Shown here one piece after another: positions 53,880 to 63,337 of a stretch of DNA of 64,000 nucleotides (the first letter of the stretch is position 1; each line of letters starts with the position of its first letter). A program made the position numbers and the translations under genes. This DNA is from an uncultured Nitrospirota bacterium (lineage in GTDB: Bacteria > Nitrospirota > Nitrospiria > Nitrospirales > UBA8639): the NCBI GenBank assembly GCA_937139405.1, contig CAKZPV010000003.1:62001-126000 (forward strand), written 5' to 3'. The notes under the pieces were generated by a model. That model searched no databases. It was not told the origin of the DNA and saw only the letters and a list, made by a program, of their open reading frames with translations.

Positions 53880-53954
53880 GCGGGCGTAGCTCAGTGGTAG
53901 AGTTCTTGCTTCCCAAGCAAGCTGTCGGGGGTTCAAATCCCCTCGCCCGCTCCA
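53880..53954 (+). tRNA. tRNA-Gly (CCC anticodon)
   Basis: A complete cloverleaf: acceptor GCGGGCG/CGCCCGC, D-arm with GCTCAGTGGTAGAGT, anticodon loop TTCCCAA, T-loop TTCAAAT and encoded CCA. Reads GGG glycine codons. It marks the left side of the RiPP locus that follows. Confidence 0.95.
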
Positions 53955-54127: not shown

Positions 54128-54526
54128 ATGAAAAAGTATTGGATACTCCTTCGGATAGGGATTCTTATGATATGGATTAGGTTCGCCTTGAAATTTGTGA
54201 AGCTGACGACCCTGCTTGCATGGTTACAACCTAGAATAGGTTCAGGGAGGGAAGATGAAGAGTGTGTTGCGAAGATGGCTTACTATACTGATGCTCTCTT
54301 AGGAATGTTTCCTGCCAATCCTAAAGGAAATTGTCTGCCTCGTTCTCTCATTCTTTTTCGTCTCGCTCGCTTAGAAGGGTTCCCGGTTGTGTTTCATTGT
54401 GGTGTGAGCCGTAGTGGATCAGGTTTGGATGGCCATGCCTGGCTCACTCATATCGAACAACCTTTTCTAGAAAATTCTAGTCAACATCAATCGATGGTGA
54501 AGACGATTTCTTTTCCTGCTAAATGA
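54128..54526 (+). CDS. Lasso-peptide-type B2 leader peptidase
   Basis: A 132-residue transglutaminase-like Cys peptidase of the lasso B2 family, which cuts the leader from a precursor delivered by a PqqD-like B1 protein. The catalytic Cys69 is in GNCLPRSLILFRLARLEG and His103 in GHAWLTHIE, the typical C-L-P-R-S and H-A-W motifs; the third acidic residue is likely Glu110. A short hydrophobic N-terminus (about 6-30) may sit at the membrane, next to the exporter encoded downstream. A GTG two codons earlier is an alternative start. Confidence 0.85.
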   Translation: MKKYWILLRIGILMIWIRFALKFVKLTTLLAWLQPRIGSGREDEECVAKMAYYTDALLGMFPANPKGNCLPRSLILFRLARLEGFPVVFHCGVSRSGSGLDGHAWLTHIEQPFLENSSQHQSMVKTISFPAK

Positions 54527-54607
54527 AACAATCTAGAGAACCGAGGTCCTGGCAACGTTCTCTAGAGGTCCATATTCTTGTCTTTATTGTTGAAAGACCT
54601 TGAATAG

Positions 54608-56434
54608 ATGAAGATACCTTCAATGCTTAATCAATATGTCAATCGATTTCGGCCCCTATATGGGAATATGTGTTTAGCCTTGTCGTTTGTTTGGAAGAGT
54701 GGATCCAATTGGACTCTCGCTAATATTGGGCTGCTCATCATGCAAGGACTTCTCCCTTTAGCCACGTTGTATCTAATGAAGTTGTTGGTTGATCACGTGG
54801 CTGATGCGCTTACTCAACCAAATCCTCAACTGTTATTAAATGACGTGGCGTTCATTATGATGGGGATGGGCGGGGTAGCATTATTGAGCAGTATTCTTTC
54901 GATACTTTCGACTTGGGTGTCGCGAGGCCATTCGCAGCTGGTTGTGGACTATATGCAAAATATTTTGCATGTTAAATCCTTGGAAGTCGATTTGGAATAT
55001 TATGAGAACTCGCAGTATTACGATCGCTTGCATCGTGCGCAACAGGAAGCTGGCCATCGTCCTATTTCCATTCTAAATTCACTTATACAAGTCGGTCAAA
55101 ATGCTATTTCCCTTGTTGCCATGGGAGGTCTGTTGTGGATGTTCCATTGGGCTGTTGTGCCTGTGTTGCTCGTTGTGGCCCTTCCTGAGTTTTTTGTTCG
55201 TCTTCGGTATGCGAATAAGATGTATGACTGGCAACGGAGTCGAACGGAGGAAGAACGCAAGACTTGGTACTTAAATTGGATGTTGACTCGGGATACCCAT
55301 GCGAAGGAAATCCGTTTATTTCAGGTGGGGTCATATTTTAAAGGAATGTATCAGGGTATACGGACATTGTTGCGTAATGAACGACTCGGCTTAGAAAAGA
55401 AACGAGCATTCGCATCTTTAGGCGCGCAAGTTTTAGCGACGCTCGGGATATTTGGTGTGTACTTTTTTCTTGCCCACCGTACCTTGCAAGGTTTTCTGAC
55501 CCTGGGTGATTTAGTCATGTATTTTCAAGCTATTCAGCGAGGGGCGGGTTTTCTGCAACAATTTAGTGTAAGCCTTTCGGGGTTGTATGAACATAATTTA
55601 TTTCTGAATAACCTCAATGAATTTTTAAAAGTGGAATCTCGTATTCAAGAGCCTATACATCCAATCGCCGTTCCAGTTCCCTCGACCAAGGGATTAGAGT
55701 TTGATGGTGTAACATTTGCGTATCCTGGAGACAGGCAAAAACGGCTTTGTCACTTTTCCTTTAAAATCAAACCAGGAGAACATATTGCATTTGTTGGAGC
55801 CAATGGAGCAGGGAAGACGACACTCGTGAAAGTGCTGTGCCGGCTGTATGACCCTGATGAAGGAGAGATTCGGCTTGATGATCGAAATATCCAAGACTTT
55901 TCAGTTGAACAATGGCGCGGTGAAATTAGTGTCATTTTTCAAGATTTTGCGCGATATTATTTAACAGCTCGAGAAAATATTGCGTTAACCGAGCATGGAA
56001 TCTCTGATTTGGAAAAAGTTAGAACGGCTGCAACACAGGCTGGTGCCAATGAGTTTATTGATCGTCTGCCTTTAGGGTATGACACAATTTTGGGGAAATG
56101 GTTTGACGGTGGCCAGGAACTCAGTGTTGGTGAATGGCAAAAAGTGGCGTTGTCTCGGGCATTTTTCCGTGACTCCCAAATATTGATACTTGATGAACCA
56201 ACCAGTGCGATGGATGCCAAAGCGGAAGCCCAATTATTTGAACGCTTTCATCAATTGACAAAGGGGCGAATGGCCATTTTGATTAGCCATCGTTTATCAA
56301 CGGTTAAAATGGTAGATCGTATTTATGTTGTGGATCATGGGGAAATCGTAGAATCCGGAAATCATGACGAGTTAATGAACCAAGCAGGGTCCTATGCTGA
56401 GCTGTATGAAATTCAAGCTAAGCACTATCAGTAA
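54608..56434 (+). CDS. ABC exporter (permease plus ATPase)
   Basis: A half-transporter of 608 residues: six membrane segments in the first 330 residues, then the ATPase with Walker A GANGAGKTT near 397, signature LSVGEWQKVALSRA near 505 and Walker B ILILDEPTSAMD. No C39 peptidase domain is present, so leader removal must come from the B2 protein encoded upstream. Its position right after B2 supports export of the mature peptide, as for lasso D proteins. Confidence 0.88.
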   Translation: MKIPSMLNQYVNRFRPLYGNMCLALSFVWKSGSNWTLANIGLLIMQGLLPLATLYLMKLLVDHVADALTQPNPQLLLNDVAFIMMGMGGVALLSSILSILSTWVSRGHSQLVVDYMQNILHVKSLEVDLEYYENSQYYDRLHRAQQEAGHRPISILNSLIQVGQNAISLVAMGGLLWMFHWAVVPVLLVVALPEFFVRLRYANKMYDWQRSRTEEERKTWYLNWMLTRDTHAKEIRLFQVGSYFKGMYQGIRTLLRNERLGLEKKRAFASLGAQVLATLGIFGVYFFLAHRTLQGFLTLGDLVMYFQAIQRGAGFLQQFSVSLSGLYEHNLFLNNLNEFLKVESRIQEPIHPIAVPVPSTKGLEFDGVTFAYPGDRQKRLCHFSFKIKPGEHIAFVGANGAGKTTLVKVLCRLYDPDEGEIRLDDRNIQDFSVEQWRGEISVIFQDFARYYLTARENIALTEHGISDLEKVRTAATQAGANEFIDRLPLGYDTILGKWFDGGQELSVGEWQKVALSRAFFRDSQILILDEPTSAMDAKAEAQLFERFHQLTKGRMAILISHRLSTVKMVDRIYVVDHGEIVESGNHDELMNQAGSYAELYEIQAKHYQ

Positions 56435-56466
56435 TTGAAAAATGCATACGTGTAAAGAGGTTTGCC

Positions 56467-57087
56467 ATGGCAAAACCAATACATGTCCTGAACAGAAGAA
56501 AAGTACTTGTCTGGGGAGGAATGGTCGGGGCACTCTTACTGAGTGGTGGGACATTGGTTCGTTGGTTGTACAAAATAGATGCATTGCCTGATCTTGAACA
56601 TATCCATGAACCGCTTCTTGAGCAATCCTTTGAAAATTTTTCGGCTTATGAAGCGACGGTCTTACATGAGGTGGCTGGACTCATCATTCCAGCGGATCAA
56701 CATCCCGGCGCAAAAGAGGCATTGGTGGTCGTTGAATTTGATCAGATGGCCAAAAACAATGAGCGGTTTAAGGTGCTGTGCCAGCAAGGTGTACGGTGGT
56801 TAGATGAAATAGCGAACGACCTGTTTCAGGTCAAGAGTTTTTTGCAACTTGATTGTTCCGCCCAAACAAAAATTCTCTTGAAGGCTGACGTACCGTTAAA
56901 AACGGTTTGGGAAAAGATCTCGGACAAGATTCAATATGGTGAAACACACCTCGGCTATACATTTTTCCAATCTCTCAAACAACAAACGTTTGCCGTTTTT
57001 TACGCCCATCCGATGGGTTGGATGACTGTTGGTTATCACGGCCCTCCTCAATGGTCGGGGCATCTAGACTATCATATCTGTGTGTAG
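56467..57087 (+). CDS. Gluconate 2-dehydrogenase subunit 3-like protein with Tat-type signal
   Basis: A 206-residue protein of the gamma-subunit family of FAD-dependent sugar dehydrogenases. The N-terminus NRRKVLVWGG followed by a hydrophobic stretch fits a twin-arginine signal; in known complexes this small subunit carries the flavoprotein out through Tat. The core FENFSAYEATVLHEVAGLIIPADQHPGA is typical. It is 32 bases after the exporter and 3 bases before the GMC gene. Confidence 0.8.
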   Translation: MAKPIHVLNRRKVLVWGGMVGALLLSGGTLVRWLYKIDALPDLEHIHEPLLEQSFENFSAYEATVLHEVAGLIIPADQHPGAKEALVVVEFDQMAKNNERFKVLCQQGVRWLDEIANDLFQVKSFLQLDCSAQTKILLKADVPLKTVWEKISDKIQYGETHLGYTFFQSLKQQTFAVFYAHPMGWMTVGYHGPPQWSGHLDYHICV

Positions 57088-57090
57088 AAC

Positions 57091-58770
57091 GTGACGCAGA
57101 GAATTGAAGCAGATATCTGTATTATAGGTTCCGGGGCCGGAGGAGCGGTTATGGCCTATAGTTTGAGCCAAGCAGGGTTTTCTGTTGTCGTCCTGGAAGC
57201 TGGGCCGCGCTTTGATCCGACACAGTATCCTCTGAACCAGGCAGATTGGGAACGATTACCAAAGACTTTCTCTGCTTCAAGAGATGCACAGCGAGATCAC
57301 TATACGAGCGGGCCGAAAGAACCGCTCAATCCTCAGTATCGTCATTTACAATCATGGACAGAAGGGGAAAAAGTATCAGTAAACAAAACGCATCGTGCTC
57401 CGCCAAAGGTCTATCGGGTGAAGGGAGTAGGAGGCTGCACCCTGCATTATCAGGGCGAAGCGCATCGTTTTTCTCCCCATGCCTTTAAATCTCGATCTTT
57501 ATTTGGGTATGGAGAAGATTGGCCTATTCAATACGAAGATCTTGAGCCCTATTATGACAAAATGGAAAAACTCTTAGGCGTCGCGGGTGATCCCAATAAC
57601 CCATTCAAAGCTCCTCGAGGCCCCTTCCCCAATCCACCTCATCGCTTAAGTTGTGCCAGCCAGCGCTTCAAGCAAGGCTTTGATGAATTAGGCCTCCAGC
57701 TACATCAAAATTCAGTCGCGATTCTTTCTCGACCCTATGATGGTCGGGTGCCCTGTAATTACTGTAACGGCTGTTCACAGGGATGCATGATGGGGTCGAA
57801 AAGTAGTATGGATGTATCGCTGTTGCCGAAAGCCGAAGCGACGGGGAACACACGCATTCTGGCGAATGCGACTGCAGCACAGATTCAAATAGATGGCGAA
57901 GAAAAGGCCAAAGGCGTCATGTTTTTTGATGAGAAAAAACAAGAAAATTTTGTCCATGCCAAGGTTGTTGTGCTTTCTGCTAGTGCGATGGAATCACCTC
58001 GTCTTTTATTGAATTCCGAGTCCAAGGCCTTCCCTGATGGCTTGGCCAATCGTAGTGGGGGCGTGGGCCTATATTTCATGGAGACGATGTTTCATGATCT
58101 CACCGCGTTGTTTGATGAACCGATTCATTCGCATAAAGGCTTGCAAATTGATGCTCGCTGTTGGAATTACAATTTTCCTAATCCGAGCCAATCTTTTCAG
58201 GCTGGAGTGGTATTTGGAGTATCACCCTTAGGGTTGATCGGTCCTGGAGCCTACTCCAAATATCTCGTTCACGGTTGGGGGAAAAGTCATAAGGATCAGA
58301 TGCGAGAATATTTTGGACGTACCTTGCATCTGTTTGCTATTGGAGAACAACATCCTCATCCAAATAATCAGGTGAAGCTGGATCCTACAGAGAGGGATGG
58401 TTTTGGTCTACCAGTCTCGCAACTCGCAACACAGCTTCATGCCAATGAATTGGAAATGCTGAATTTTATGGCGATACGAGGCAAGGCTATCTCAAATGCG
58501 GCAAGAGTCAAGCGAGTGCTAGGGGAAGCGAGTGCCTATGACTTGAGTGGTATTACCCATATGGGTGGAACCTGTCGAATGGGGTCAGATCCTCAACGGT
58601 CCGTCGTTAACCAGTTCTGCCAAAGTCATGATGTTCCTAATTTGTTTGTAGTGGATGCCAGTTGCTTTGTCACACAAGGCGGTGGCGATAGTCCATCATT
58701 GACGATTCAAGCTTTGGCGCTGCGAGCGGGAGAGTATCTTGCTAAAGAAGCGCGGAAAGGGAACATCTAA
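57091..58770 (+). CDS. GMC-family FAD oxidoreductase with Cys cluster
   Basis: A 559-residue glucose-methanol-choline oxidoreductase. The FAD loop CIIGSGAGGAVMAYSLSQAGF is at 10-30, and HMGGTCRMGSDPQ and LFVVDASCFVTQGGGDSPSLT lie near the end. A cluster PCNYCNGCSQGC near 221-231 matches the cysteine region of FAD glucose dehydrogenases, which in some members binds a 3Fe-4S cluster. There is no signal of its own, so export with the Tat-type partner is likely. The substrate may be a sugar or alcohol, or, given the locus, the RiPP. GTG start. Confidence 0.85.
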   Translation: MTQRIEADICIIGSGAGGAVMAYSLSQAGFSVVVLEAGPRFDPTQYPLNQADWERLPKTFSASRDAQRDHYTSGPKEPLNPQYRHLQSWTEGEKVSVNKTHRAPPKVYRVKGVGGCTLHYQGEAHRFSPHAFKSRSLFGYGEDWPIQYEDLEPYYDKMEKLLGVAGDPNNPFKAPRGPFPNPPHRLSCASQRFKQGFDELGLQLHQNSVAILSRPYDGRVPCNYCNGCSQGCMMGSKSSMDVSLLPKAEATGNTRILANATAAQIQIDGEEKAKGVMFFDEKKQENFVHAKVVVLSASAMESPRLLLNSESKAFPDGLANRSGGVGLYFMETMFHDLTALFDEPIHSHKGLQIDARCWNYNFPNPSQSFQAGVVFGVSPLGLIGPGAYSKYLVHGWGKSHKDQMREYFGRTLHLFAIGEQHPHPNNQVKLDPTERDGFGLPVSQLATQLHANELEMLNFMAIRGKAISNAARVKRVLGEASAYDLSGITHMGGTCRMGSDPQRSVVNQFCQSHDVPNLFVVDASCFVTQGGGDSPSLTIQALALRAGEYLAKEARKGNI

Positions 58771-59151
58771 CAGGCTCTGTTTGTGAATACATGTTGTGCG
58801 ACAAAGATACAGAACTTCTATGGAATACAAGAGAATGTATGCATGAGAAGGGGTGGGCTATTGGTTTTAATTTTCCTCTAACAAGTTTGGGTGATTTTTT
58901 CTAAGAAATACCATGCGTACGTATTTATGACTAGTTGAGGTTATCGCGAGAATTGGATGCTACAAATGTCATCTTACATGATTTGAGAAGAATGTCTTTC
59001 CGACTTTGAGCGTACGAGCAAGAGATTGTATTCTGCTGGCTGTTTGTCTCCCTCAAATTGACTATTGTGGAATGTGCAAGACAATTTTACTGTGATTGCA
59101 GTAGGTGTCAGGATTATTCCATGTGGTTTTCAAAAAGGAAGGCAACACCGT
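58771..59151. other. Intergenic region upstream of the first precursor
   Basis: About 380 bases. The GMC stop has no clear terminator. A TTGACT at 59058-59063 with a weak -10 (ACAATT) 17 bases on could be the promoter of the first precursor. No further precursor copy was found in this stretch. Confidence 0.4.
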
Positions 59152-59277
59152 ATGAATCAAGACCAACAAAAAGAAATCTATTCGGAGCCGATCGTGCTGA
59201 AACATGAGTCCTTACGTGAGGTCACTGGTGGGGGAAAATATGCCGAAAAAGTGACAGATGTTTTTGATGCCAATTAA
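59152..59277 (+). CDS. RiPP precursor peptide 1, lasso-type leader
   Basis: A 41-residue peptide with AAGGAAGG upstream. The leader has the lasso spacing Y10-x2-P13-x-V15-x3-E19-x5-T25, with V and E replacing the usual L and G. With T25 at -2, the core would be residues 27-41, GGKYAEKVTDVFDAN. Its acidic residues fall at core positions 6 and 10, which does not give a standard 7-9 residue lasso ring. Lys and Thr alternate with Glu and Asp. Leader recognition by the PqqD-like protein encoded downstream is expected. Confidence 0.8.
   Translation: MNQDQQKEIYSEPIVLKHESLREVTGGGKYAEKVTDVFDAN
59164..59232 (+). repeat. Leader-encoding repeat, copy 1
   Basis: A 69-base unit matching the one at 59405-59473 at 61 positions. 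Six of the seven differing codons are synonymous and the other is Ile/Val, so the leader protein sequence is kept while the core has diverged. Confidence 0.85.
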
Positions 59278-59284
59278 ATAATAA

Positions 59285-59315
59285 GGGGCGGAAGTATTGA
59301 GAGAGTACTTGCCCC
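59285..59315 (+). terminator. Hairpin between the precursors (possible attenuator)
   Basis: GGGGC and AAGTA pair with TACTT and GCCCC around a nine-base loop, with two bulged bases. No T-run follows; the next bases are the -35 of the second promoter. It may be a weak terminator or an mRNA processing or stability site after precursor 1. Confidence 0.45.
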
Positions 59316-59316
59316 G

Positions 59317-59343
59317 TTGACTTTTCTGTTGACCACATATAAT
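59317..59343 (+). promoter_or_regulatory. Candidate promoter of precursor 2
   Basis: TTGACT then a perfect TATAAT, 15 bases apart, about 50 bases upstream of the second precursor ATG. The spacer is short, but the -10 is ideal. Confidence 0.5.
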
Positions 59344-59395
59344 ATTTAAAAGGTCAAGGATTGTTATCGTTATCTTTCATTAGGGAGAGCAAGGT

Positions 59396-59518
59396 ATGCA
59401 AGCCCAACAAAAAGAAGTGTATTCAGAACCGATCGTGTTGAAACATGAGTCCTTGCGAGAGGTCACGGGTGGGATTCCCGGCAAATACACAGAAAAACAG
59501 AAAGAAGCTGTAGAATAA
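59396..59518 (+). CDS. RiPP precursor peptide 2, lasso-type leader
   Basis: A 40-residue peptide with GGGAGAG upstream. The leader is nearly the same as in precursor 1 (Y9, P12, V14, E18, T24). With T24 at -2, the core would be residues 26-40, GIPGKYTEKQKEAVE, where Glu33 sits at core position 8, right for a Gly1-Glu8 lasso ring. The core lacks the bulky plug residues typical of lassos and is rich in Lys and Glu, so side-chain ligation by ATP-grasp enzymes is also possible. It is followed by a strong terminator. Confidence 0.82.
   Translation: MQAQQKEVYSEPIVLKHESLREVTGGIPGKYTEKQKEAVE
59405..59473 (+). repeat. Leader-encoding repeat, copy 2
   Basis: Partner of the 69-base repeat in precursor 1; the identity stops at the Gly-Gly junction between leader and core, where an extra Ile-Pro appears here. 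Confidence 0.85.
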
Positions 59519-59604
59519 CCAGCAAAAGGTGCTGGCCAACAAAACCTCATGCCATAAGATGAGAGACTGTTTTTGAAGTAGACGAGATCATCATGATCTT
59601 ATTG

Positions 59605-59639
59605 GAAGGGAGTGAATAAATCACTCCCTTCTTTTTTTT
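59605..59639 (+). terminator. Rho-independent terminator after the precursors
   Basis: A perfect 11-bp stem GAAGGGAGTGA / TCACTCCCTTC with a five-base loop, followed by eight T. It should separate precursor transcription from the enzyme operon downstream. Confidence 0.95.
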
Positions 59640-59914
59640 GCGGAGTAACTTCCTCTGAGCTTTATTATTTCTTGCCTTTTTTTCTCCTCAGTTTTAGTTC
59701 ATGACGGCCTAAACTTTTGGTTTTTCAGAAAGAAAAAATCTTGAGGTCTGAGTGCACCCACCAAGATTGTTCTCTTTTATCCTCTCCTTTTTTCATCATT
59801 CTTTTACAATTTTCCTAGTGTTTTTGCTTGTGAGAGCGTCCTTTTCTGCCGATTAGTGAATAAGGTTGCTCGTATACTTAAGGGTGTTCTCATTGCCAAC
59901 GAGGGACTGGCTTG
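59640..59914. other. Intergenic region before the ATP-grasp operon
   Basis: About 275 bases, AT-rich. It must hold the promoter of the ATP-grasp-PqqD-HprK operon, since a strong terminator precedes it. I could not pick a convincing -35/-10 pair. Confidence 0.4.
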
Positions 59915-60838
59915 ATGATTCTCATTTTGGGGTCTACAGAAAATTGGGTTGTTCGGCAAGTGACGACAGTCCTTGTAGAGCAAGGTCTTTCAACGGTTGT
60001 GATTTCACCAGAAAATTTGGTGTTTGACGGCAATTTAATTTGGCAGGTTGGAATCAGTCAGCATTGTCAGCTAAACGATGGCAAGCGAGAGACCGTTTCA
60101 ATTGATTGTTCTTCGCTGGCAGCGATCCTTTGGCGAGGGAAATTTCCTCTATCTACTATGACTTCGGACCATTGGTCGCGACAAGATCGTGACTATATCG
60201 CGAAAGAGGGTTATGCGGCTTTGTTAGGGCTTTTACAGGATTGTCCATGTCCAGTGATCAACCAACCAACTCCGGCGGGAGACCGAAGTCGATTCTTTTT
60301 TGCAGACGCTTGTTGGACACGGCGGTTTGCAGAATATTCGATTCATCTCCCTTCCATGTGCCTTGCCACTTCTCGATCATTGGCGCACGAATGGTTGCAG
60401 GATGCTTCTGGAACGGTGCGAAGCATTTCGTTAGCTGGAGCAGACTCCACTGGACTCGTTCCTGAGCAATCAGAATTGAGCGAGTGGGATTACATGAAAT
60501 CTCCTCTCTGTTTACAAACTATTCCGTCAGGCCAATGGTTTCATGTGGTTACATGTGGAGAAGAAGCACTGGGTGGACCGATAGATCCGCAAGTTGGTTA
60601 TGGTTCATTTGTGACTGGAGTGGAACCTCAAGCTTGCCCTTCTTCGCTCATCAAAAAATGTGTGTTTTTAGGAAAAACCTTTCAAATGGAGTTTGCTGAG
60701 AGCATATGGGTGAATCATGAAGGAGGACAGTGGTATTGCATGGATTGGAATAGTTCTCCACAAGCGGAACATTGGGGAACAACGATGCATCAAGAAATTC
60801 CTAAGTTACTCGCCAAATTGCTTGTCAATATATCATGA
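59915..60838 (+). CDS. ATP-grasp-type protein 1 of the RiPP locus
   Basis: A 307-residue protein with a preATP-grasp start (MILILGSTENWVVRQV) and an ATP-grasp-like end, where WYCMDWNSSPQAEHWG occupies the place of the E-x-N metal motif (here D-x-N). The central lysine-bearing strands are less clear than in its neighbour, so this one may be the weaker or regulatory member of the pair, as in two-enzyme graspetide systems. It overlaps the next gene by ATGA. A TTG one codon earlier is an alternative start. Confidence 0.72.
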   Translation: MILILGSTENWVVRQVTTVLVEQGLSTVVISPENLVFDGNLIWQVGISQHCQLNDGKRETVSIDCSSLAAILWRGKFPLSTMTSDHWSRQDRDYIAKEGYAALLGLLQDCPCPVINQPTPAGDRSRFFFADACWTRRFAEYSIHLPSMCLATSRSLAHEWLQDASGTVRSISLAGADSTGLVPEQSELSEWDYMKSPLCLQTIPSGQWFHVVTCGEEALGGPIDPQVGYGSFVTGVEPQACPSSLIKKCVFLGKTFQMEFAESIWVNHEGGQWYCMDWNSSPQAEHWGTTMHQEIPKLLAKLLVNIS

Positions 60839-61770
60839 CATTCAATCCTCACATTCTTTTGATCGGGCCGGTCGCGGAGCCCATACTTGCGAGCGTCAGT
60901 GCGAGACTTGCGAGGCGAGATTGCACCTTGGTTATTTTGAATTTTCAGCGACCTGCTCATGAATGGCCCATTTCTCTTTCATTTTCTGGAAAGGAACGGA
61001 TAGGAATTTTACAGGTCGAAGATCGAAAAATCCACTTAGAGACTATTCGTTCCACCTATGTTCGGATAGCCAATAGGTTTCCTCAGGTGAATGATGGCGA
61101 AGTTTTTCAAGATATTCAACCGCATCATCACGCGCTTTTTCCTAATATCTTAGGGTGGCTTCCAGGGTTAGTGATCAATCCTTATGAGGCAGCTTGTACC
61201 AATGCCTCCAAACCGTATCAGCAATTGCTTATCTCGCAGTTAGGATTTCAAGTGCCTAAAACCTTGATAACAACCATGCCACAAGCCGTTCGTCATTTTT
61301 ATTCGGAATGTAACGGAAGGGTCATTTACAAATCGATTAGCGCAGAACGGTCTGTCGTGAAGCGGCTCATAGAGGAAGATTTTGATCGGCTCGAGCAAAT
61401 TCTATCATGCCCTGTTCAATTTCAAGAGTTTATTCCTGGGATCGATTTTCGAGTTCATGTGGTTGGTCGGCGGGTGTTTGCGAGTCAGATCGAAACGAGT
61501 TCGACTGATTACCGATATGTGGATACGGATGGATTTCGCCGTATTCGTGCTGTTGAGTTTTCTCCTGAGTTGCAGGAACAATGTGTGGCGTTGACTGAAG
61601 GGTTAGGGCTGGTCCTAGCGGGCATCGATCTACGGCGAACGATGGATGGCCAGTATTATTGTTTTGAGGTGAATACCAGTCCGGCATTTACATTTTACGA
61701 GGGTCAAACCGGGCAGCGAATTGGAGAGGCCGTTGCTGAGTTACTCTACAAAGGCAAGGTCGAATCTTAA
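60835..61770 (+). CDS. ATP-grasp ligase 2, RimK/graspetide-synthetase-like
   Basis: A 311-residue ATP-grasp enzyme. Clear motifs: VIYKSISAERS (ATP-binding Lys), VQFQEFIPGIDFRVHVVGRRVFA, the LAGIDLRRTMDGQYYCFEVNTSPAF block with the Asp and E-V-N metal ligands. This order matches the RimK and MvdD type ligases, which join carboxylates to side-chain hydroxyl or amino groups through acyl phosphates. The likely substrate is the nearby precursor, whose cores offer Lys, Thr, Glu and Asp. Confidence 0.82.
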   Translation: MTFNPHILLIGPVAEPILASVSARLARRDCTLVILNFQRPAHEWPISLSFSGKERIGILQVEDRKIHLETIRSTYVRIANRFPQVNDGEVFQDIQPHHHALFPNILGWLPGLVINPYEAACTNASKPYQQLLISQLGFQVPKTLITTMPQAVRHFYSECNGRVIYKSISAERSVVKRLIEEDFDRLEQILSCPVQFQEFIPGIDFRVHVVGRRVFASQIETSSTDYRYVDTDGFRRIRAVEFSPELQEQCVALTEGLGLVLAGIDLRRTMDGQYYCFEVNTSPAFTFYEGQTGQRIGEAVAELLYKGKVES

Positions 61771-61795
61771 TTGCTCAATAAAAGAGGAGGCGAGA

Positions 61796-62275
61796 ATGGC
61801 TGATATCGATAAACCGGAGAAAAAAGAATTATTTATTGGTTCTGAATTGCGACCTAAAGTCGGGTTTGATGAATCTGAAGATACGCCGCAGGTAAATTCT
61901 TCAGCCACAAATCAAGAAATTCAAGAGGCCGCCATGAAAGCGTTAGAAAGCCATGGTCCAATGTCACCCCTTCCTCAGAGTTCTGGTGATTGGGAGTCTG
62001 AAAAGAATTCTGTGCTTCATGCTGCTGAGGATGTGCATTGTACGATTTTAGAGGGGGATGCTGTGCTCTTAAATTTAGAGAATGGCTATTATTATTCCCT
62101 GAATAAAGTTGGAACGGTCATTTGGGAAAATAGCGATGGCAAGCGTACGCTTCAAAAAGTGCTCGAACATATTTGTGATCGATTTGACGTTACGGAAGAG
62201 CGGGCTCAAGCCGATCTGCTATCTATCACGGCACAATTAGTCCAAGAAAAGCTCCTTCTTAAGTCTGATGCTTGA
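61796..62275 (+). CDS. PqqD-family leader-binding protein (RRE)
   Basis: A 159-residue protein; GAGGAGG sits five bases before the ATG. Residues 77-157 form a PqqD domain: HCTILEGDAVLLNLENGYYYSLNKVGTVIWE, then the helical half ending VQEKLLL. In lasso systems the stand-alone PqqD (B1) binds the Y-x2-P leader motif and hands the precursor to B2. The first 70 residues are acidic and probably disordered, which is longer than usual for B1. It follows the ATP-grasp gene by 25 bases. Confidence 0.88.
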   Translation: MADIDKPEKKELFIGSELRPKVGFDESEDTPQVNSSATNQEIQEAAMKALESHGPMSPLPQSSGDWESEKNSVLHAAEDVHCTILEGDAVLLNLENGYYYSLNKVGTVIWENSDGKRTLQKVLEHICDRFDVTEERAQADLLSITAQLVQEKLLLKSDA

Positions 62276-62335
62276 GTGGTCTTTTTTCGTAGATCCTGAA
62301 AGTTTTCCTATGACATGCCCATGATTGGAGCGACC

Positions 62336-63337
62336 ATGCAAAGCCTTGAAGTCTCGATCCATAATAATGATCTGAAAGTCTCCTCTGCGTCTCCTATGCT
62401 TTTCGATCCAATTTGTCGTTTTTTACGGTATGTCTCAGTGAAACCTGCCAGTCAAGGTCCGATTCTTGACTTGACGTGTTATGCGGTTTCGTCACCAGAA
62501 GAAATTCCTGATGTTTTGTCCCCACATTCAAAAGAGGTATCGTCTCGTACTGGGGAAACGCGAGGGGACACCGCACGGTCAGAATGGAAGTGTACGCTAT
62601 ATGTGGAACCCACTAAATTCATTGCCGATTATCATGCCCAAGGTCTTGTTCTTGTTGATTTTTCAACCGAGAGTGCTCAGGTGTATGTCGTAAGGCCGGA
62701 GGCTATGCATGAAGATATTCGAATCAGTTACTTTCATTTTGCGTTAGTCGAACTGCTGAAGCGTCGAGGATTTTATACGCTTCATGCGACAGCCTTAGAG
62801 AAAGATGGGCAAGGTATCTTGATTCCGGGTTGTAGTGGAAGAGGCAAAACCACGGCTTTCATCTCGTTGCTTCGTTCTGGCTATCGTTGTCTGTCGGATG
62901 ACCATCCCCTGCTTCATGAAAACAATGGGGAGTTGGAGCTTCTGGCTTTTGAAGAGAAGGTTGATGTGACAGAAAATTCACTCAAATTTTTCCCTGAATT
63001 TCAGAATGCGAGCGACGAGAAATTGCCACAAGGATTTTGGAAACGGTATTTTTATATTGAAGATTTCTATGATGATCGCTTTGCCATGTCCTGTCGACCC
63101 CGCATGTTACTCTTTCCACAGATCGTAGATGTTCCCACGAGCTCTGTCCAGTCCTTAAAAAAAACTCGCGCGTTGGAAGAATTGCTCCCTGAAACTCTTG
63201 CCGTCTTTGACAAGCAAGTCGCGAAGCAAGAGTTTCAATTCTTATCCAGGTTAGTGAATCAATTAGATTGCTACCAATTGTATTTTGGCCACGATGTGTT
63301 GGACTTACCTAAGTTAATTGATCCTCTTCTGAAATGA
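62336..63337 (+). CDS. HPr kinase-like protein of the RiPP locus
   Basis: A 333-residue protein with a P-loop like the C-terminal half of HprK: LIPGCSGRGKTTAFISLLRSG (163 on) and CLSDDHP at 185-191. Such kinases occur in lasso clusters, where some phosphorylate a core Ser; here neither core has a Ser, so Thr, Tyr or another target would be needed. GGAG lies seven bases before the ATG at 62336; an earlier ATG at 62315 is less likely. Last gene of the operon, followed by a terminator. Confidence 0.8.
   Translation: MQSLEVSIHNNDLKVSSASPMLFDPICRFLRYVSVKPASQGPILDLTCYAVSSPEEIPDVLSPHSKEVSSRTGETRGDTARSEWKCTLYVEPTKFIADYHAQGLVLVDFSTESAQVYVVRPEAMHEDIRISYFHFALVELLKRRGFYTLHATALEKDGQGILIPGCSGRGKTTAFISLLRSGYRCLSDDHPLLHENNGELELLAFEEKVDVTENSLKFFPEFQNASDEKLPQGFWKRYFYIEDFYDDRFAMSCRPRMLLFPQIVDVPTSSVQSLKKTRALEELLPETLAVFDKQVAKQEFQFLSRLVNQLDCYQLYFGHDVLDLPKLIDPLLK

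Follow-up and report, generated by a model that had tools for sequence, protein, structure and literature searches.

A Nitrospirota gene cluster that may join lasso-type leader handling to graspetide-type cross-linking through a motif on its PqqD protein

We analysed a 64,000-nucleotide stretch of DNA from an uncultured Nitrospirota bacterium (the window; bases 62001-126000 of the 316-kb contig C3, in an assembly of 4.46 Mb and 51 contigs) that contains a gene cluster for a ribosomally synthesized and post-translationally modified peptide (RiPP). We consider it fairly probable that this cluster joins the leader handling of lasso peptides to cross-linking of the graspetide type, with the ligase docked through the N-terminal tail of a PqqD protein. 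The genes, all on the forward (+) strand, encode in order a B2 leader peptidase, an ATP-binding cassette (ABC) exporter, a Gluconate_2-dh3 protein, a GMC oxidoreductase, two precursor peptides, two ATP-grasp proteins (here AG1 and AG2), a PqqD protein (B1) and an HprK-like kinase. An earlier note on this DNA had listed the B2 peptidase, an ABC exporter without peptidase domain, two precursors, two ATP-grasp proteins, PqqD and the HprK-like kinase; our analysis confirmed all of these, and the two oxidoreductase-related genes, Gluconate_2-dh3 (56467-57087) and GMC oxidoreductase (57091-58770), had been overlooked.

Precursor 1 (59152-59277, +) consists of MNQDQQKEIYSEPIVLKHESLREVTG up to the presumed cut and GGKYAEKVTDVFDAN after it, and precursor 2 (59396-59518, +) of MQAQQKEVYSEPIVLKHESLREVTG and GIPGKYTEKQKEAVE. 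Both are real genes: their 21 shared leader codons differ by six synonymous and one non-synonymous codons, they have homologues in 14 other genomes, and a hairpin with a 12-bp stem and a T run follows the second (59604-59632, +, ahead of AG1), the strongest site of a terminator scan that overall was not above chance. Each leader carries YxxPxL and a Thr at position -2 of the presumed cut; Y..P and this Thr are what lasso B1 and B2 recognise in a leader (PMC10368454). Their presence in 54/54 gathered precursors is not independent evidence, since the pattern used for gathering included them; the homologues found by tblastn support them independently. The core of precursor 1 contains K-V-T-D and that of precursor 2 contains K-Y-T-E and K-Q-K-E.

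These tetrapeptides belong to a regular pattern, Lys-x-x-Asp/Glu (K-x-x-[DE]), which supplies a graspetide donor and acceptor (Ser/Thr/Lys and Asp/Glu). The pattern was observed 52 times in the 26 cores linked to the ATP-grasp pair, against 12.2 expected from shuffles (z 13, a score that overstates independence, as does the Fisher value below, because the precursors and the PqqDs are akin). It is present in 23 of these 26 cores and in 2 of 28 other cores, where it also totals two. Beyond it, strong spacings are limited to [DE]K neighbours and a gap of 6, as would be expected if the unit were repeated. Judged from the sequences, an acid placed three residues from a Lys points to a lactam between side chains. 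The same cores would also allow a lasso-like ring in which AG2 truly replaces the lasso cyclase and joins the new N-terminus left by B2 to an acidic residue: with a cut after Thr-x, 18 of the 26 (counted by eye) have Asp/Glu at position 7-9, and the leader handling is lasso-type. This ring seems unlikely to us. The remaining 8, including window precursor 1 with its first Asp at 10, have no such residue, the first core residue varies, Lys-x-x-Asp/Glu is the more constant feature, and known graspetide ligases link side chains (PMC13097080).

The cross-linking enzyme would be AG2 (60835-61770, +). AG2 matched RimK (PF08443) at 40 bits, over the cut-off, and TIGR04187 at 127 bits, below the cut-off of 350; its closest solved relative among the PDB matches is the plesiocin ligase PsnB (5.8e-28). 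All catalytic residues examined are kept in 13/13 sequences, the cluster's own members showing D-[FIL]-R, so that AG2 has the intact active site of a graspetide ATP-grasp ligase. The corallotide ligase, which is annotated TIGR04187, forms Lys-Asp lactams in KxxxD repeats (PMC13097080), a precedent for the Lys-Asp/Glu lactam that we propose for AG2. ATP-grasp ligases are also able to join separate molecules, and the RimK match could mean that the pair attaches amino acids or another small molecule without forming a ring. We find such tagging improbable, given that the closest solved relatives are graspetide ligases rather than RimK and that the constant distance in Lys-x-x-Asp/Glu points to a bond within the peptide. 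A plasmid search with AG2 gave three partial matches, at <40% identity.

AG1 (59915-60838, +) had no Pfam match. A profile search found PruB (9bou, E 1.1e-11), and the structural model (pLDDT, the predicted local distance difference test, 77.6) had PruB, AMdnB and MdnC as its top PDB matches; according to this model, AG1 has the graspetide ATP-grasp fold. The equivalents of AG2 Lys126, Arg172, Glu198 and Asp265 are gone in 15/15 AG1 sequences, and AG1 is probably a non-catalytic partner. The earlier note's picture of a pair of working ligases therefore has to be revised, since only AG2 is intact, and the cluster departs from the microviridin type, in which both ATP-grasp enzymes are catalytically intact. 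It is quite improbable that AG1 is active through an unusual active site and that each of the two proteins forms its own kind of bond, like MdnB and MdnC in microviridin: D-x-N is kept in 4/15 and one ATP-site Lys in 12/15, but none keeps any of the four residues above, and DFR is likewise lost. Some graspetide ligases are known to depend on a partner, for example MirC (PMC13097080); both MirC and AG1 are ligase partners, but MirC is unrelated to AG1, which is a degenerate ATP-grasp protein.

The PqqD protein (61796-62275, +) matched PF05402 at 59 bits and the lasso PqqD models NF033536 and NF033530, in both cases below the cut-off. In its model, residues 1-31 are disordered and the RiPP recognition element (RRE) region is confident. 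The disordered extension contains FIGSELRP (61832-61855, +), an instance of FIxxxLRP, which we found in 15/15 PqqDs adjacent to the ATP-grasp pair and in 0/29 other PqqDs (Fisher p about 4e-12). In eight aligned PqqDs, the first 36 positions have no invariant residues other than Met1 and this motif's F, I, L, R and P. A strict scan for motifs of this type in long open frames totalling 590,664 residues gave 31 matches, of which 15 are the adjacent PqqDs and 16 are carrier proteins encoded beside ATP-grasp pairs; there were no matches outside these two groups. The precursor leaders are lasso-type and FIxxxLRP stands on PqqD instead, in a comparison that covered part of the known graspetide leader motifs.

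The carrier loci (L008, L009, L057-L067, L071, L072) hold a related ATP-grasp pair beside large, otherwise unrelated proteins, without PqqD or B2 alongside. These proteins include an M6 peptidase, one with a weak lectin match, DUF6519 proteins, and esterase-like and trypsin-like proteins; each has a Lys/Glu-rich (K/E) tail with [FY]I..x[LEF]RP just after it. Possibly, to judge by their composition, the carrier systems cross-link protein tails; we know of no description of a system that combines K/E-tailed carriers with ATP-grasp proteins. The simplest reading of the distribution is that FIxxxLRP would be a docking site for the ATP-grasp pair, acting in cis on carriers and in trans on PqqD. The microviridin leader helix PFFARFL activates its ligase (PMC8939145), and PFITADL, in most PqqDs of the set, resembles it, a likeness and not a test. 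Moreover, a graspetide leader still functions after transfer to the opposite end of its substrate (PMC13003496), and by analogy this is in line with a movable docking motif.

To follow the conservation of the cluster, we searched 396 genomes of the phylum, defining relatives by an AG2 match of E <1e-70; outside the phylum the analysis covered two loci only (L008 and L009, from Acidobacteria and Bacteroidales), both of the carrier type. AG2 relatives in 14 further genomes adjoin AG1 and PqqD and share their locus with homologues of the precursors, and together with the window these make 15 genomes of six genera and two families in one order. One genome of this order, G204, has a gene for a subunit of ammonia monooxygenase, which would fit Nitrospirota. 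The combination of lasso-type leader handling with ATP-grasp proteins recognized in the earlier note is thus genuine and conserved, and the outcome that it had set against itself, relatives with the pair never near precursors, did not occur in any of the 15. In 13 of these genomes the locus also includes B2; the G383 contig stops short, and in G301 B2 is on a different contig. There, ABC and B2 genes stand with a precursor of their own (L113; core RGSYACNDNEGG...), suggesting that exporter and peptidase are shared. Seven loci (L044, L046, L047, L049, L050, L053, L055) contain a pair of adjacent sub-cassettes, both of which have a PqqD and precursors of their own. It is most doubtful that the ATP-grasp pair is a mere neighbour with another target, the precursors being just phosphorylated and cleaved as perhaps in the clusters with B2, PqqD, HprK and precursors that do without ATP-grasp, for all 15 loci combine the pair with a PqqD that bears the motif and with precursors, and a second precursor class in the same loci without K-x-x-[DE] has a PqqD without the motif.

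The window cluster sits 3' of tyrS and tRNA-Gly (53880-53954). In three genomes of the same genus (L141-L143) this site is empty, with the STAS gene and htpX immediately after tyrS, and in G301, of a different genus, precursor, AG1, AG2, PqqD and HprK genes occupy exactly this tyrS/STAS-htpX site. This result indicates that the cassette has been gained and lost.

The cluster has the YxxPxL leader, the Thr at -2, B1 and B2 of lasso peptide systems, and it holds no cyclase C (NF033535). The earlier note had advised looking for a cyclase beyond the window and in relatives; there is no asparagine-synthase-like gene (PF00733) anywhere on contig C3, and in none of the 15 genomes does a lasso cyclase exceed the NF033535 cut-off. 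Six full-length asparagine-synthase-like genes elsewhere in the window's genome (C1, C4, C48) were rejected as candidates: none lies with B2 or PqqD, and all are far below the cut-off. Only in G373 does a cyclase come near the cut-off (409.8 bits); it belongs to a separate locus of B2 and cyclase, L114, on a different contig, and shows that the search was able to find true cyclases.

Among the B2 loci that we read there are three kinds. The first has B2 and a cyclase (e.g. L114, L119, L121-L123); the second has B2, PqqD, HprK, a nucleotidyltransferase and precursors, without cyclase or ATP-grasp (e.g. L124-L126, L128, L131, in the same order); and the third is the ATP-grasp type. The wider set to which the second kind belongs (L118, L120, L124-L131) is lasso-type, likewise without cyclase or ATP-grasp, and has PqqD, HprK, nucleotidyltransferase and YxxPxL precursors, mostly with B2 and ABC genes, and cores such as ...TAxxSG... 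or ...TAIQLSR.... In a tree of the PqqD domain, which is weak at 82 residues, the cyclase-linked PqqDs stand apart from the ATP-grasp-linked ones and those of clusters with neither enzyme. The earlier note's proposal that ATP-grasp enzymes take the place of C is not supported in this simple form. Because related clusters without both cyclase and ATP-grasp exist, the ligase appears to have been added rather than swapped for C; most likely, the pair joined a lasso-type chassis that already worked without C.

The leader peptidase B2 (54128-54526, +) is transglutaminase-like; it matched NF033537 at 44.2 bits against a cut-off of 33, as well as Pfam Transglut_core3, and keeps the catalytic Cys (NCLPRS), His (GHAW) and an acidic residue 12 positions after the His. 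It is the sole B2 in the genome, which also has one PqqD of the cluster's kind. The exporter (54608-56434, +) has ABC_membrane and ABC_tran domains, and its homologue adjoins B2 in most relatives. The kinase (62315-63337, +) scored 57 bits with TIGR04352 (HPr-rel-A system), under the cut-off of 200; in an alignment its motif LHA...GCSGRGKT...SDD is intact (His, P-loop, DD). The lasso kinase BsfK modifies core residue 3 (PMC10368454), and at this position many cores, those of the window not among them, have Ser or Tyr.

We infer a tailoring role for the Gluconate 2-dehydrogenase subunit 3 family protein (56467-57087, +; PF13618, 63 bits) and the GMC oxidoreductase (57091-58770, +; PF05199/PF00732). 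Both genes also adjoin the cassette in G307, and the pair lies by the cassette in two distant genomes (window 56467-58770; L056 5660-8128, where the GMC homologue adjoins AG1 and is 59% identical). The small subunit has a very weak match to a twin-arginine signal, hinting at a periplasmic step. A fatty-acid-hydroxylase-like membrane protein of about 345 residues (PF04116, an assignment tested in L048 12358-13395) is encoded 3' of the precursors in many ATP-grasp loci (L044, L046-L055), is absent from the window, and has a possible role in tailoring or immunity. Promoter-like sites in the scan were no more numerous than in shuffled sequence.

Taken together, these data are consistent with the following mechanism. 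The winged-helix domain of PqqD would hold the YxxPxL leader of the precursor, and FIxxxLRP in its disordered tail, replacing the ligase-recognition motif normally found on graspetide leaders, would dock and activate a complex of active AG2 and degenerate AG1. AG2 would then phosphorylate an Asp/Glu side chain and link it to the Lys three residues upstream, giving one to three Lys-x-x-Asp/Glu lactams per core. HprK would phosphorylate a core hydroxyl, the GMC pair may oxidise the product, B2 would cut the leader off after Thr-x, and the ABC protein would export the peptide. In broader terms, this would be a natural split-leader mechanism, in which a graspetide ligase's recognition motif sits on the disordered tail of an RRE adaptor, which in this way directs the ligase to lasso-type precursors, with related pairs cross-linking the K/E tails of large motif-bearing proteins; on this wider proposal we are evenly divided.

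Several observations weigh against the mechanism. K-x-x-[DE] is missing from three ATP-grasp-linked cores, and the kinship of the sequences, as said, inflates the statistics. The motif-bearing PqqDs split into two groups, again in a weak tree. The K/E tails of the carriers are spaced differently, with a K-x-x-[DE] z of only 3.2. Finally, the G301 cassette has no adjacent B2, the sole B2 of that genome lying elsewhere, and some sub-cassettes (L050, L053, L055) lack an HprK of their own.

We found no description of a natural lasso-graspetide combination in the literature searched, whose reach did not extend to subscription journals and supplements; within it, the combination is described as a laboratory construct only. 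Lasso and graspetide enzymes were joined on one peptide in March 2026, as engineering that yielded modifications "not seen in nature" (PMC13003496). A 2026 survey lists two graspetide groups, 33 and 39, with a "transglutaminase fold" neighbour (PMC13097080), and these could include loci of the present kind. Nature seemingly merges parts of the two systems without a lasso ring, by a route that differs from the engineered chimeras in that the ligase-recognition motif has passed from the substrate to the protein that binds the leader. If this is true, a short tail added to an RRE could steer graspetide ligases to new peptides, and FIxxxLRP would be a simple genome-mining signature for unexplored peptide and protein cross-linking systems.

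Among known systems, the phosphorylated lasso clusters (paeninodin; Bradymonas bsf with A, B1, B2, C, K, N and D) share with the window cluster the YxxPxL leader, PqqD-type B1, B2, HprK-like kinase and ABC exporter, and their nucleotidyltransferase is found in its relatives (PMC10368454, PMC8498205); unlike them, the window cluster has no cyclase C, and has an ATP-grasp pair and Lys-x-x-Asp/Glu cores. TIGR04187-type graspetides (corallotide, rosaritide; PMC13097080) resemble it in the intact active site of AG2 and provide precedents for Lys-Asp lactams and partner-dependent ligases, whereas here the leader is lasso-type, the recognition motif is apparently on PqqD, the peptidase is B2 and not a GG peptidase, and the partner is a degenerate ATP-grasp protein and not MirC. 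The microviridin system likewise has adjacent ATP-grasp proteins (MdnB and MdnC) and a leader helix like the PqqD tail of the relatives, but both Mdn enzymes are active, whereas here AG2 alone would be and the motif would act in trans. The lasso-graspetide chimera ThfA16 (PMC13003496) also brings both enzyme families to one peptide and has a movable graspetide leader; it is a fusion made in the laboratory that has two leaders and uses a lasso cyclase, whereas the window cluster is natural, with one leader and no cyclase. The K/E-tailed carrier systems share related ATP-grasp proteins and the FIxxxLRP-type motif with the window cluster; in them, unlike here, motif and tail stand in one large protein.

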